In this document: positions 2,389 to 61,102 of the stretch, piece by piece
How the letters are laid out: every line of letters starts with the position of its first letter
Numbering within the stretch: the first letter of the stretch is position 1
Translations under genes and position numbers: made by a program
The notes under the pieces: model-generated
Seen by the model: the letters and a program-made list of their open reading frames with translations, nothing else
Databases searched by the model: none
What the model was told of the DNA's origin: nothing
DNA from: Anaerocolumna cellulosilytica
GTDB lineage: Bacteria; Bacillota; Clostridia; Lachnospirales; Lachnospiraceae
Assembly: GCF_014218335.1 (NCBI RefSeq)
Contig: NZ_AP023367.1
Location: 4,707,501 to 4,771,500, forward strand
DNA length: 64,000 nt
Reading direction: 5' to 3'

Positions 2389-2418
2389 TTATTTGTCTAA
2401 TGATTTCATCGTCGGGAA
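2389..2418 (-). other. Displaced native 3' end of lysS (last codons and stop)
   Basis: Read on the minus strand, these 30 bases encode FPTMKSLDK followed by TAA. This is the conserved C-terminus of lysyl-tRNA synthetase, and nothing of the gene lies upstream. The intact lysS at 59612-61102 ends [13 protein letters not shown] with different codons after the shared 14 bases. The simplest reading is that the element inserted at these codons, gave lysS a substitute tail, and left the host's original tail here. Confidence 0.88.
2405..2418. repeat. Left attachment-site core (attL), 14-bp direct repeat
   Basis: TTCATCGTCGGGAA is identical to 59628-59641. It corresponds to the lysS codons for FPTM plus the first bases of the next codon. 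Tyrosine integrases commonly recombine at the 3' end of conserved genes, and the integrase gene begins its 3' end about 180 bp away. Confidence 0.9.
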
Positions 2419-2449
2419 TACTCTCCGAGCTAGATTAGTATCACCAATT

Positions 2450-2511
2450 GTACCTGATTATTCAGTATTTAAGCTATTTTCTTAAAAGTATTATCACTTA
2501 CTATCAGGTAC
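2450..2511. repeat. 9-bp inverted repeat near the left end of the element
   Basis: GTACCTGAT at 2450-2458 is the reverse complement of ATCAGGTAC at 2503-2511, with 44 bases between. It lies between the attachment core and the integrase gene, so it could be a recombination-protein site or a weak terminator for the integrase. No T run supports the terminator reading strongly. Confidence 0.4.
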
Positions 2512-2527
2512 CATAAAATCAAAAAAA

Positions 2528-2564
2528 GTTGTCATTTTGTTGTCTTTCCTAATTTCTTGTTGTC
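2528..2564. repeat. Three GTTGTC direct repeats, possible integrase arm sites (left)
   Basis: GTTGTC occurs at 2528, 2539 and 2559, that is 11 and 20 bp apart, about one and two helical turns. Two copies extend to TTGTTGTC. Tn916-type integrases bind short direct repeats inside the element ends through their N-terminal domain, so these are candidate arm-type sites. This is inferred from position and spacing. Confidence 0.5.
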
Positions 2565-2595
2565 CTCTATAAGAAGCCTATTTAAAGACTCTTTT

Positions 2596-3830
2596 CTAAA
2601 ATACATCCAAGTTTCGTGCTAGGTTTTCAATCGCTTCTTGTTTCTTTGAATCAGTTACTTCTGCATAGATATCCATAGTGGTCTCAATACTTGCATGACC
2701 CATAATTGCCTGGATTACCTTTACGTTTGTTTCATTCTCGCAAAAGCGAGAACAGAATGTGTGCCTTAAGTGGTGACAAGAGAAATGCGGAATAATGATA
2801 GGTTGTCTTTTTTCTTTCTTTGCATTAATAATCTCATCAGCGTTATATGCTTCTAAGATTCTACGAATCGCTCGATTCACAGCTAACGGATTATGAATCG
2901 TGTTAAAACGATTGGTAAAGATAAATCCTGTCATTCCATCAACGACTGTACTGCAAAAACCATCTTCCTTCTGTCTCTCATATTCTGACTGAAGTGCGTC
3001 ATATACCGGCTGCATAATCGGTAGTTTTCTAATACCTGCATTTGTTTTAGGAAGTGATACCTTAAACTCACACTTATAAGTATCTGTTCTTCTCGGATAA
3101 TAAGTCATGCTATGATTGATATCAATCAGGCGAGATCCCATATCCACATCCTGCCACCTTAGTCCTACAACCTCACCAATACGACACCCCGTTCCCAATA
3201 ATACTGTAAAGAACGGACTCCAGTGACAAAATACCGGGCTTGTCGCAATATAATTCATGAATGCTCTCTGTTGCTCCAACGTTAGTGCATGTCTTACGCC
3301 TTTATTCTTACCACCCTTTTTCTTGATCTCAGCCATCACTCTATCACTCGGATTATTCCGAATAATATCATCACGTACTGCTAATTGAAATGTTGGGTGA
3401 AGTACCGTGTGAATAGTCTCCAATGTATTAATATGAATTTTCTTTTCATTCAACAAGTCATAATAGAAATAAAGTACATCTGAATACTTTATCTCTCCTA
3501 TTTTTTTCTTTCCAAAGCCATCCCTGACAAAGTGATCATACATATACGTGTAATTCGTATATGTCGTCTCTCTAAGTTCAGACTTAGTAGAAATATACCT
3601 GTCAAAAACAAAATTTAAATCCGCATTACCTGCAACATAAACATCAAGTCCATCCAGCTGATCCTTAATAAGTTTTCCTCACGTTCCCTTAACTTTTTCA
3701 AATCTTTTGAATAGATAAATCTTCTATTCCCATAAGGGTCTGTGTAACCATAGGCGTATCTGTTGTCGATTTCCCGATATATCTCACCTTTTCTCAAGGC
3801 TCTTCCTTTATTATCTTTTCGTGCTGCCAT
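2596..3830 (-). pseudogene. int: Tn916-type tyrosine integrase, interrupted by a one-base frameshift
   Basis: This enzyme would cut and join the element at attL and attR. The N-terminal part (3673-3830) has the DNRGR-type arm-binding domain with RYAYGYTDPYGNRRFIY. The rest (from about 3676 down to 2596) carries the core-binding and catalytic domains with Arg in GTGCRIGEVVGL, His/Arg in HHLRHTFC, and MGHASIETTMDIY with the nucleophilic Tyr. The two parts are in different frames. Restoring one A in the run at 3673-3676 gives a continuous protein of about 411 residues, the usual Int length, through EKLIKDQLDGLDVYVAG. There is no canonical slippery heptamer at the site, so a mutation or a homopolymer sequencing error is likelier than programmed frameshifting. 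All catalytic residues remain. Confidence 0.9.
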
Positions 3831-3869
3831 CTCTTTCTCCTTTCTAATATGAAGAAAAGAGATTCTACA

Positions 3870-4043
3870 CTACTTTTGGGATGTCCTATATAACAATTCA
3901 ATCCCTATTTTCATTGCCTGAGTCATAGTCTGATTATGAGATTCCGCATATTTCTTGAGTGCCTGATATTCGCTTTCTGTAAAACGTACAGTTACTCTGT
4001 GCAAGCTTGGATCATCGACCGTTGGTCTTCCCATCTTTGCCAT
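3870..4043 (-). CDS. Small ribbon-helix-helix-type DNA-binding protein
   Basis: This 57-residue protein begins MAKMGRPTVDDPSLHRV and contains the beta strand plus two helices expected of Arc/CopG-like ribbon-helix-helix repressors (VTVRFTESEYQALKKYAE). The start at 4043 was chosen because AAGGAGG lies 10 bases upstream; a longer frame would start before that site. It sits just upstream of the integrase gene on the same strand and probably controls int or excision. Its target is not visible. Confidence 0.65.
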   Translation of the reverse strand: MAKMGRPTVDDPSLHRVTVRFTESEYQALKKYAESHNQTMTQAMKIGIELLYRTSQK

Positions 4044-59215: not shown

Positions 59216-59330
59216 GCAAGCCTTGACTGATTTTATGTCCAGATATACACCGGAATTTTCCATGCTGTAACTGCTATTTAGTTGATGCATTAAGATTACA
59301 TCAGATAGGTTCATTTGAACATTCCGCCAC

Positions 59331-59368
59331 ATGGTAAATATTTTTATAAACTTACCATGTAATGGTAA
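59331..59368. repeat. Three TTACCAT/ATGGTAA repeats
   Basis: ATGGTAA at 59331-59337, TTACCAT at 59352-59358 and ATGGTAA at 59362-59368. The last two form an inverted repeat with a 3-base centre. They lie between the structured stretch and the lysS terminator, where the promoter of the partition operon is expected, so they may be regulator or ParR-like sites. Confidence 0.5.
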
Positions 59369-59426
59369 ATCCATTATCAAATAAGTTTTTTAGATTTTTC
59401 CAATAATACTATGATTTCTACGCAAG

Positions 59427-59473
59427 CAAAAAAAGGACATCTTTCTAAAATTTCTTCTAGAAAAATGTCCTTA
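59427..59473 (-). terminator. Rho-independent terminator for lysS, supplied by the element
   Basis: On the minus strand AAGGACAT pairs with ATGTCCTT, with an inner TTTCTA/TAGAAA extension, followed by TTTTTTT. It lies about 140 bases after the lysS stop, inside the element, and replaces the host terminator now separated by 57 kb. Confidence 0.85.
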
Positions 59474-59527
59474 AAGTGCAAAATATTAAATTGGTCTCTG
59501 GATGCAAATTTATATTATCACGTATTA

Positions 59528-59570
59528 TGCTGTACTATACGCTGTAAATTTGCTGTACTCTTGCTGTACT
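59528..59570. repeat. Four phased GCTGTA direct repeats, possible arm sites (right)
   Basis: GCTGTA at 59529, 59541, 59552 and 59563, spaced 12, 11 and 11 bp, so all face one side of the DNA. Three extend to TGCTGTACT. They lie about 60-100 bases inside the right attachment core. Likely integrase N-terminal domain or excisionase sites; compare the GTTGTC repeats at the other end. Confidence 0.6.
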
Positions 59571-59611
59571 TAGGACTAGCGAAGTGCCTCAAACCCTTGA
59601 TTTTACTGAAC

Positions 59612-61102
59612 TTACTTCTCCAAGCTCTTCATCGTCGGGAACAACAATACATCCCTGATTGCCGCAGAATCTGTTAACAGCATAACCAAACGATCAATAC
59701 CGATACCAATACCACCAGTTGGCGGCATACCATATTCCAGGGCATTTAAGAAATCTTCATCTAGAGAGTTGGCTTCTTCATCTCCTGCTGCACGAAGTGC
59801 TTCCTGGGCTTCAAATCTGCCTCTTTGGTCAATTGGATCATTTAACTCAGAGAAAGCATTTGCCATTTCTCTCTTTGTAATAAACAACTCAAAACGCTCT
59901 GTAAAATCTGGTGCATCCGGTTTTCTTTTTGCTAATGGTGAAATTTCAACAGGATGATCCATAATAAAGGTGGGTTGTATTAAGTTCTCTTCTACGAATT
60001 CTTCGAAGAAAAGATTAATAATATCACCCTTTTTATGTCGGTCTTCATATTTTATGTGATGTTCTTTTGCCAGCGCTTTTGCTTCCTCTTCGGAAGTGAC
60101 CTGCGTAAAGTCAACGCCGGAATATTTTTTAACAGCCTCTAACATTGTCATACGTTCAAAAGGCTTTGATAAATCAATTTCCACTCCGTCGTATGAGATA
60201 AGGGTTGTCCCAAGAACATTTTTCGCAACTGTACGATACAATTCTTCCGCTAAATCCATCATACCATAGTAATCTGTATATGCCTGATATAACTCAAGTA
60301 ATGTAAATTCAGGATTATGTCTTACAGAAAGTCCTTCATTTCGAAATACTCTTCCGATTTCATATACTCTTTCTAAACCGCCGACAATTAGACGTTTTAA
60401 ATATAACTCAAGAGAAATTCTTAAATGAATATCTTCATCCAGGGCATTGTGATGTGTCAAGAAAGGTCTGGCTGCGGCACCGCCTGCATTGGGTACCAAT
60501 ACCGGTGTTTCCACTTCTATAAAGTTTTTAGAGTCCAAGTATCTGCGGATTTCACGTATAATTAAGGAACGTTTTACAAAGGTATCCTTTACTTCCGGAT
60601 TCACAATTAGGTCTACATATCTTTGTCTATAGCGAGTATCCGTATCCTTTAATCCATGGAATTTTTCTGGAAGTATCTGAAGACTTTTGGTTAGCAAAAC
60701 TACTTTAGTCGCTTTAATTGATATTTCTTCCGTATGAGTTTTAAAAACTTCACCTGTAATTCCTATGATATCTCCAATATCATACTTTTTAAAATCAGCG
60801 TATTCCTCTTCGCCGATTGCATCTTTTCTGATATAAGACTGGATATTCCCTTTGATATCCTGAATATTACAAAAGGAAGCCTTACCCATGATTCTCTTAG
60901 ACATAATACGACCGGCTATGGATACCTCCTTGCCTTCTAACTGCTCAAATTCTGCTGCTACTTCTGCTGAATGATGAGTCACATCGTATTTCATAATCTG
61001 GAATGGATCTTTACCATTTTCCTTTAATTCGGTGAGTTTTGCTCTTTTTATCTTTAACAGTTCATTTAGGTCCTGTTCCGCCTGTATCTTTTCTTCAGCC
61101 AC
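59612..61102 (-). CDS. lysS: Lysyl-tRNA synthetase, class II
   Basis: 496 residues, the normal bacterial length. It charges tRNA-Lys. The N-terminal OB-fold for the anticodon ([20 protein letters not shown]) is followed by class II motif 1 ([20 protein letters not shown]), motif 2 ([20 protein letters not shown]) and motif 3 ([20 protein letters not shown]). The last nine codons (MKSLEK region) come from the mobile element; the ones lost at 2389-2418 differ by one residue (SLDK). The enzyme should be fully functional after integration. Confidence 0.97.
59628..59641. repeat. Right attachment-site core (attR), 14-bp direct repeat
   Basis: Identical to 2405-2418 and lying in the FPTM codons of the intact lysS. 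Bases after the core (towards the stop) differ between the two copies, so the crossover lies in or next to these 14 bases. Confidence 0.9.

Follow-up and report, generated by a model that had tools for sequence, protein, structure and literature searches.

Elements at lysS as apparent swappers of the C-terminal domain of lysyl-tRNA synthetase

The lysS locus of Anaerocolumna cellulosilytica

The 64,000 nucleotides of Anaerocolumna cellulosilytica considered here (assembly GCF_014218335.1, contig NZ_AP023367.1, positions 4,707,501 to 4,771,500; the whole of this stretch is called the window) carry an integrative and conjugative element (ICE) of 57 kb, which lies in the 3' end of lysS, the gene encoding lysyl-tRNA synthetase (LysRS). 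In the window the insertion is close to silent, whilst comparison with other genomes suggests that elements at lysS remove, replace and carry the C-terminal domain of LysRS, and thus appear to be domain swappers of an essential enzyme.

The target gene, lysS, is found at 59612-61102 on the minus strand, as are all features given below unless otherwise stated, and is 496 codons in length with matches to PF00152 (E=3.1e-93) and PF01336 (E=5.1e-15). A perfect 14-bp direct repeat, TTCATCGTCGGGAA, occurs at exactly 2405-2418 and 59628-59641; in the form of the lysS strand it reads TTCCCGACGATGAA and falls within the FPTMK codons of lysS, and an exact search confirms the positions and the location in FPTM codons that had been given in the initial annotation. 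When up to two mismatches are allowed these remain the only two copies in the window, a count that 2 of 100 shuffles reached or exceeded, and a degenerate form of the repeat is found at two places only in the whole genome of 5,430,627 bases. A chance origin of the repeat was rejected on the basis of the shuffles and the whole-genome pattern search. The two copies form the attachment (att) cores of the element, that at 2405-2418 on the integrase side and that at 59628-59641 within the intact lysS, and a direct repeat within these codons, with the same core in relatives, is the mark of elements of the lysS 3' end.

Each core is followed on the lysS strand by a tail of the gene. The displaced copy at 2389-2418 translates as FPTMKSLDK-stop, of which the orphan tail proper is 2389-2404 on the integrase side of the element, and the working lysS ends in SLEK-stop at 59612-59627 on the element side of its core, translation therefore bearing out that the left copy is an orphan and the right copy the end of the intact gene. 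There are 7 differences between the tails in the 16 bases 3' of the repeat, which affect five codons, four of them synonymous and one changing D to E; the four synonymous or conservative changes first claimed hold as regards the four synonymous codons, but not as a count. With both tails 9 codons in length from FPTM the window is not a carrier of a LysRS C-terminal domain cassette, and a LysRS-type domain gave no match in G000 at 1e-35.

Beyond the working tail, on the element side, a hairpin at 59427-59473 (-22 kcal/mol, z -7.45) is followed by a T run on the lysS strand, in agreement with the proposal that the element brings a terminator for lysS. The left flank also contains a hairpin, at about 2253-2301 (-27.9 kcal/mol, z -8.66), with its T run on the plus strand, and it may therefore serve the convergent gene at 2-2209 instead of lysS. 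Two sets of repeated motifs, neither assigned to a strand and both recognised by eye, are putative integrase arm sites: TTGTTGTC-like motifs at 2525-2570 between integrase and core, with comparable repeats in relatives (again by eye), and GCTGTA-type motifs at 59529-59569 in the right end, which are similar in G007 and L114. The right end is 90% identical to L114 over 80-120 bp and 82-93% identical over 0-200 bp to G007, a genome of the same genus that gives the best right-end match. Identity with G007 upstream of the core is 78-82%, and as the similarity is thus about equal on both sides no identity step is visible in the window. The proposal that the element supplies a substitute tail is upheld in the relatives, where identity switches inside the core (on the lysS side from host-like before it to element-like after it, and the other way round on the integrase side), and for the window it is presumed.

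The 57 kb between the cores are identified as an ICE by gene content, as an integrase, a relaxase, a coupling protein and a type IV secretion system ATPase lie within defined ends, which together with the repeat supports the original assignment of an ICE in the 3' end of lysS. The integrase gene (2596-3830) lies 177 bp from the left core and encodes a tyrosine integrase (PF00589, E=8.8e-25 on a 315-aa part) the frame of which is broken, with the integrases of relatives matching in two pieces, in different frames, that meet between about 3663 and 3708. The frame is open in 19 of 20 relatives checked, and the window element therefore does not have the intact recombination gene looked for in an ICE. 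The break could be a sequencing error, or the copy in the window may now be immobile.

Relatives of the integrase

The open 315-aa part of the integrase was scanned once against the contigs of 84,980 species genomes and gave 32 loci. In 29 of these a lysS core follows the integrase within about 205 bp and in the same direction, 27 being found by pattern and two with variant cores (L064 and L076) by eye; of the other three, two have contigs that end before the core position (L065 and L077) and one is without a core (L073). The displaced tail at the 29 cored loci is short in 17, a tRNA-binding domain in 10 and an HD-like extension in one, with the core at the contig end in the last (L048). The displaced tail in Murdochiella was identified by Pfam (PF01588, E=1.2e-26, 93.1 bits against a curated cut-off of 27) and also matches Trbp111 (E=2.4e-21); the other nine tRNA-binding tails, one of them cut by the contig end (L056), were recognised by sequence. 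The solved lysine-tRNA ligases 4up7 and 4up8, which we take to be of Entamoeba origin, also match the swapped domain.

It was possible to locate lysS in 30 of the 32 genomes. Seven of the ten genomes with a displaced tRNA-binding domain have a short-tail lysS (L051, L053, L054, L061, L063, L072 and L075), and three have the domain on lysS too (L055, L056 and L060). In Lachnospiraceae bacterium 3-2 (L078) it is a 219-codon HD-like extension that is displaced behind the integrase, just after 10948, and lysS is short-tailed, with the same 219-aa extension attached to lysS in G126 (L243). This extension has no Pfam match at 1e-3, and its match to the NCBIfam model HDIG (4.2e-5) is below the cut-off of that model. 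The claim that insertion restores the gene may stand for the window, where the change is near-silent, but does not extend to the relatives, in which a whole C-terminal domain is often removed or replaced.

Detachment of the tRNA-binding domain

The clearest cases are those of Murdochiella sp. Marseille-P8839 and Kallipyga massiliensis, in each of which a single contig carries lysS, VirD4, VirB4, a relaxase, an integrase and then the domain. There are two in-frame cores only in each, 39.6 kb apart in Murdochiella and 59.5 kb apart in Kallipyga, and the lysS genes of the two share an identical tail of 17 codons (counted from FPTM), the displaced Murdochiella domain tail being 156 codons long. 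When the two are compared on the lysS side identity is 70-72% up to the core and then 95-100% for 400 bp, and the integrase side shows the reverse, identity falling from 95-100% ahead of the core to 48-70% beyond it. The switch is sharp, with the last mismatch of the right junction at core +8 and none thereafter to +200; at the left junction the 180 bp leading up to the core contain 2 mismatches, a further one is found at +5, and from +14 onwards there are many. From these profiles it follows that the short tail belongs to the element and the domain to the host.

A search of 100 genomes of the family of Murdochiella found in G269 a match to the displaced domain and its flank that is 98% identical over all 1,978 bases, and here the domain sits in one uninterrupted lysS frame of 651 codons, that is, an empty site. 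Ahead of the core, 900 bp of lysS in G269 are 95-100% identical to those of the occupied Murdochiella, and the 1.9 kb that follow the core agree at 94.5-100% with the domain and flank displaced there. On this comparison G269 and Murdochiella are a natural before and after, in which LysRS lost its tRNA-binding domain to the insertion of a single ICE.

Domain cassettes carried by elements

In five genera (G171, G193, G207, G096 and G107) the DNA of the attached domain is 92.9-98.5% identical, compared to 79.0-86.5% for the lysS just upstream. The core is where the identity steps up, and in four of these genomes the step carries on beyond the stop into non-coding DNA. In G171 this cassette is separated by 54 kb, on which VirB4, VirD4, a relaxase and a second, weaker integrase match are found, from another tRNA-binding cassette, which differs from it and stands behind an integrase; in G193 and G107 an extra copy of the domain is found behind an integrase on another contig. 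In Peptoniphilus lacrimalis, too, a lysS that bears the domain is followed at a distance of 3-13 kb by matches to VirD4 and VirB4, and in G214 four cassettes lie in tandem over about 48 kb, all in the same direction and with three integrases between them.

Cassettes are also seen in records filed as viral. Three records named 'Bacteriophage sp.' (MT839316, MT839044 and MT838375; L240-L242) are unverified fragments of 4-5 kb, one with integrase, core and domain and one in which a VirD4-like match comes about 1 kb after the domain; they look like the ends of lysS-type integrative elements, although they do not prove a phage form. A match in IMG/VR contains lysS with the domain attached.

In the lysS of Peptoniphilus and Finegoldia (L119 and L121) the linker before the tRNA-binding domain is, by eye, encoded by CTTACGA-type repeats, which resemble integrase arm sites, as though arm sites were read as protein.

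Frequency of attached and separate domains

Among 150 genomes of the window's family a full lysS match was found in 124, with a frame of more than 600 codons in 41 and none in 83. Forty-nine of the 150 carry the LysRS-type domain, at 61 places in total, of which 40 are attached (in frames of at least 627 codons) and 21 separate (104-230 codons). Nineteen of the separate copies were fetched, G117 and G120 being left out, and in 14 of the 19 a tyrosine integrase lies 158-322 bp upstream in the same direction. The number expected from the background is 0.007 of 19, as 0.037% of directional positions have an integrase at 150-330 bp, a figure estimated from 967 kb of fetched DNA that is itself element-rich.

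Of the 100 genomes searched in the family of Murdochiella, 68 contain the domain, with 93 copies in all. Frames of 631-721 codons hold 59 of these, which were taken without individual checks as LysRS with the domain, and the other 34 are separate short frames. An in-frame stop is present in two of the 34 separate copies and in none of the 59. In a comparison separate from this survey, the median ratio of nonsynonymous to synonymous polymorphism (pN/pS) is 0.122 for separated domains (n=22) and 0.142 for attached ones (n=34), and gives no sign of decay. Such a likeness may reflect continued use, rejoining to lysS once the element has left, or no more than a recent date of insertion.

Interpretation

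It can be proposed that the right end of such an ICE would act as a ready-made lysS 3' cassette with last codons, stop and terminator, and that the integrase end would retain the displaced tail. For the window the swap would have altered one residue, D to E. The att core marks the place at which the catalytic part of LysRS gives way to an optional C-terminal domain, the PF01588 domain starting just past it in many hosts, so that integration can detach the PF01588 domain, swap it for another or detach an HD-like extension. An ICE at lysS in the window, together with a set of elements whose cassette can detach or replace the C-terminal domain of LysRS, would jointly explain the observations, and we put the probability of this explanation at about 0.88. 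At the level of sequence the comparison shows the site, the junctions in relatives, the detachment in Murdochiella as set against its empty-site sister and the cassettes that five genera share independently of lysS, one of them bracketed by an ICE. We infer that the adjacent integrase made each junction and that the SLEK tail of the window came with the element; presumably the altered LysRS works, and any of the domain change may be selected.

A number of points weigh against this explanation. No empty site was found for the window's own species and no excised circle was seen, and the broken frame of the window integrase makes present activity doubtful. The other lysS elements examined have VirB4, VirD4 and relaxase proteins that are only 26-42% identical to those of the window, so the elements are not one ICE lineage. 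Several pairs of lysS and orphan are on separate contigs and that in Sporofaciens is 214 kb apart, and thus more than one element may intervene between them. A second, displaced copy of the domain was not found in the survey in G096 and G207, and the element there is therefore assumed. Across all 465 pairs of attached cassettes the correlation of lysS identity with domain identity is 0.32, barely below the 0.38 between the two halves of lysS, so that a decoupling of lysS and domain is seen no further than the five-genus group. Five of the 19 separate copies have no integrase found adjacent, and the absence of an adjacent integrase from all 28 attached copies provides no independent control, because lysS occupies that place by construction.

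Even if the elements do exchange the domain, integration at the conserved end of an essential gene with a working tail may be benign, with domain losses that are incidental and neutral for host and element. The window and 17 of the 29 cored loci have only a short displaced tail, which is little change, 83 of the 124 window-family genomes with a lysS match have no long frame, and a benign conclusion was drawn for streptococci by Ambroset et al. 2016 (PMC4701971). However, for an essential enzyme to lose or exchange its entire tRNA-binding domain is a large change, and the pN/pS of separated domains is like that of attached ones, though this also fits recent insertion. The chances of neutrality are about even.

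A bolder extension of the domain-swapping explanation is that lysS is an ongoing natural site of domain exchange, at which elements of several kinds install alternative C-terminal modules (a short tail, a Trbp111-like tRNA-binding domain and possibly an HD-like module) in a manner reversible on excision. The architecture of LysRS in Lachnospiraceae and in Peptoniphilus-type bacteria would then be set largely by the latest element, with the effects on translation exploited by elements or hosts. This is put forward tentatively, with the odds somewhat against it.

For the window itself, the left tail may be the right end of an older, since decayed lysS element and not that of the host. In 14 genomes of the same genus, several of them fragmentary, none of the left-flank matches adjoins a lysS found there, and the view that SLDK is the native host tail is therefore not secure. 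The left flank has two CTGCAC-type repeats (by eye), its mean score to 51 short-tail lysS ends was reached by only 4 each of 200 shuffles and 200 genomic stretches, and tandem lysS arrays exist elsewhere. Against this, in 200 shuffles and 200 genomic stretches its best single score was matched 40 and 30 times respectively, there is no third in-frame core in the 40 kb left of the window element, and the T run of the left-flank hairpin is on the opposite strand. An older element is the less likely reading here.

Whilst lysS is conserved enough for recombination and the broad identity correlations show no decoupling, it is highly improbable that the mismatch of domain and lysS arose by homologous recombination or gene fission with the elements merely neighbours, given an identity step inside the att core that extends into non-coding DNA, the 14 of 19 separated copies behind an integrase of the same orientation, and an empty-site sister (G269) that brackets a single ICE.

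Integration into the end of a gene is usually called harmless since the element repairs the damage, whereas the repair made by elements at lysS would in some cases be a rewrite. In one recombination step an essential synthetase could lose or exchange its tRNA-binding domain, reversibly if the element excises. This would help to account for differences in LysRS architecture between neighbouring genera, and provides natural before and after pairs with which the role of the tRNA-binding domain can be probed. The att core concerned is moreover the one used by vanD islands in enterococci.

Other genes of the window element

The conjugation genes of the element include a VirB4-type ATPase (23047-25509; PF19044 TraG P-loop, E=8.8e-14), a PrgI-family membrane protein (25676-26125; PF12666, E=1.7e-20), a VirD4-type coupling protein (27639-29843; PF02534, E=8e-55), a MobA/VirD2-type relaxase (32897-34369; PF03432, E=7.2e-38) and a MobC/NikA-like mobilisation protein (34356-34718; PF21983, E=1.5e-11, and PF05713, E=1.1e-9). 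A cell-wall hydrolase of the NlpC/P60 type (14315-16303; PF00877, E=5.4e-12) probably belongs to the same module. A DUF3991/Toprim primase-like protein and a RadC-like protein are found at 35753-37306 (PF13154, PF13155 and PF04002).

The region at 4848-11134 has a thioesterase, a methyltransferase, a weak C39-peptidase-like match and a piece of a transposase, and resembles the remnant of a peptide or secondary-metabolite cluster. A candidate for anti-phage defence cargo is an Avs2-like NTPase of 1257 aa (40517-44290), with a match to Avs2 in PADLOC (E=1.3e-48), an LmuA-like N-terminal match (E=4.2e-17) and no Pfam match at 0.001. No resistance genes turned up among the open reading frames of the window that were scanned, although no search was aimed at them. 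A group II intron (44910-47581; RF00029 and RF02004) is nested in the ICE, with its reverse transcriptase at 45031-46917 (PF00078).

Nearer the right end there is a Flp/Tad-pilus-like cluster (50048-56421) with CpaB/RcpC, an A24 peptidase and a T2SSE ATPase (PF00437, PF16976 and PF01478, with TIGR03177 just below its cut-off), the remaining reading frames of which are without a Pfam match. Such a cluster thus co-occurs with VirB4 and VirD4 in one conjugative element. It is followed by an actin-like (ParM/Alp) segregation protein (57675-58634; PF17989, E=4.3e-12) and then, short of the right end of the ICE, by a Clostridiales-3 RNA (58945-59214; RF02942, 178.1 bits).

Comparison with known systems

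The initial annotation held ICE insertion in the 3' ends of aminoacyl-tRNA synthetase genes to be far less familiar than in tRNA genes, which is overstated, as lysS is a published ICE site both in streptococci and for the vanD islands. In streptococci the ICEs at the lysS 3' end have a tyrosine integrase, direct repeats of 13-17 bp and a slight change to the end of LysRS, and their integration was concluded to be benign (Ambroset et al. 2016, PMC4701971). The elements of the window and its relatives share this kind of integrase, site and repeat and, in the window, the slight change of the protein end; the streptococcal ICEs differ in their hosts, and the change described in the accessible part of that paper is a very slight one of the protein end only, with neither loss nor gain of a domain.

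The vanD islands Tn6711-6713 and ICEVREfm_vanD, described from enterococci in 2021 and 2023, have 13-bp repeats in lysS and a proposed origin in the Clostridiales, and circular forms were detected for Tn6711 and Tn6713 (PMC8301612, PMC10765050). One of these papers describes lysS as disrupted and reports that no evidence of excision was seen. The core of the islands is TTCCC[g/a/c]AC[a/g]ATGA, which TTCCCGACGATGA of the window fits; the islands are larger and carry vanD.

A protein-level precedent for the swapped domain is Trbp111 and the C-terminal OB-fold of methionyl-tRNA synthetase (PDB 1pyb and others; PMC11286949), which match it by sequence (E=2.4e-21 to Trbp111). Here the Trbp111-like domain is found on a bacterial LysRS and is carried or displaced by mobile elements. 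A search of the literature, covering open-licence papers only, found no report of the exchange of LysRS domains by mobile elements.

A further parallel is the e14 prophage in the icd gene of Escherichia coli, in which 54 residues of the 3' part are replaced by the element's copy with two conservative changes (PMC11148124). As in the lysS elements, e14 substitutes its own 3' copy of the gene and the displaced piece lies at the far end; the difference is that e14, in the published account available, makes a replacement of the same length in one enzyme, with no domain lost, gained or exchanged. The window element and its site at lysS are thus of a known kind, and what is added here is the removal, replacement and carriage of a whole domain by elements at this site.

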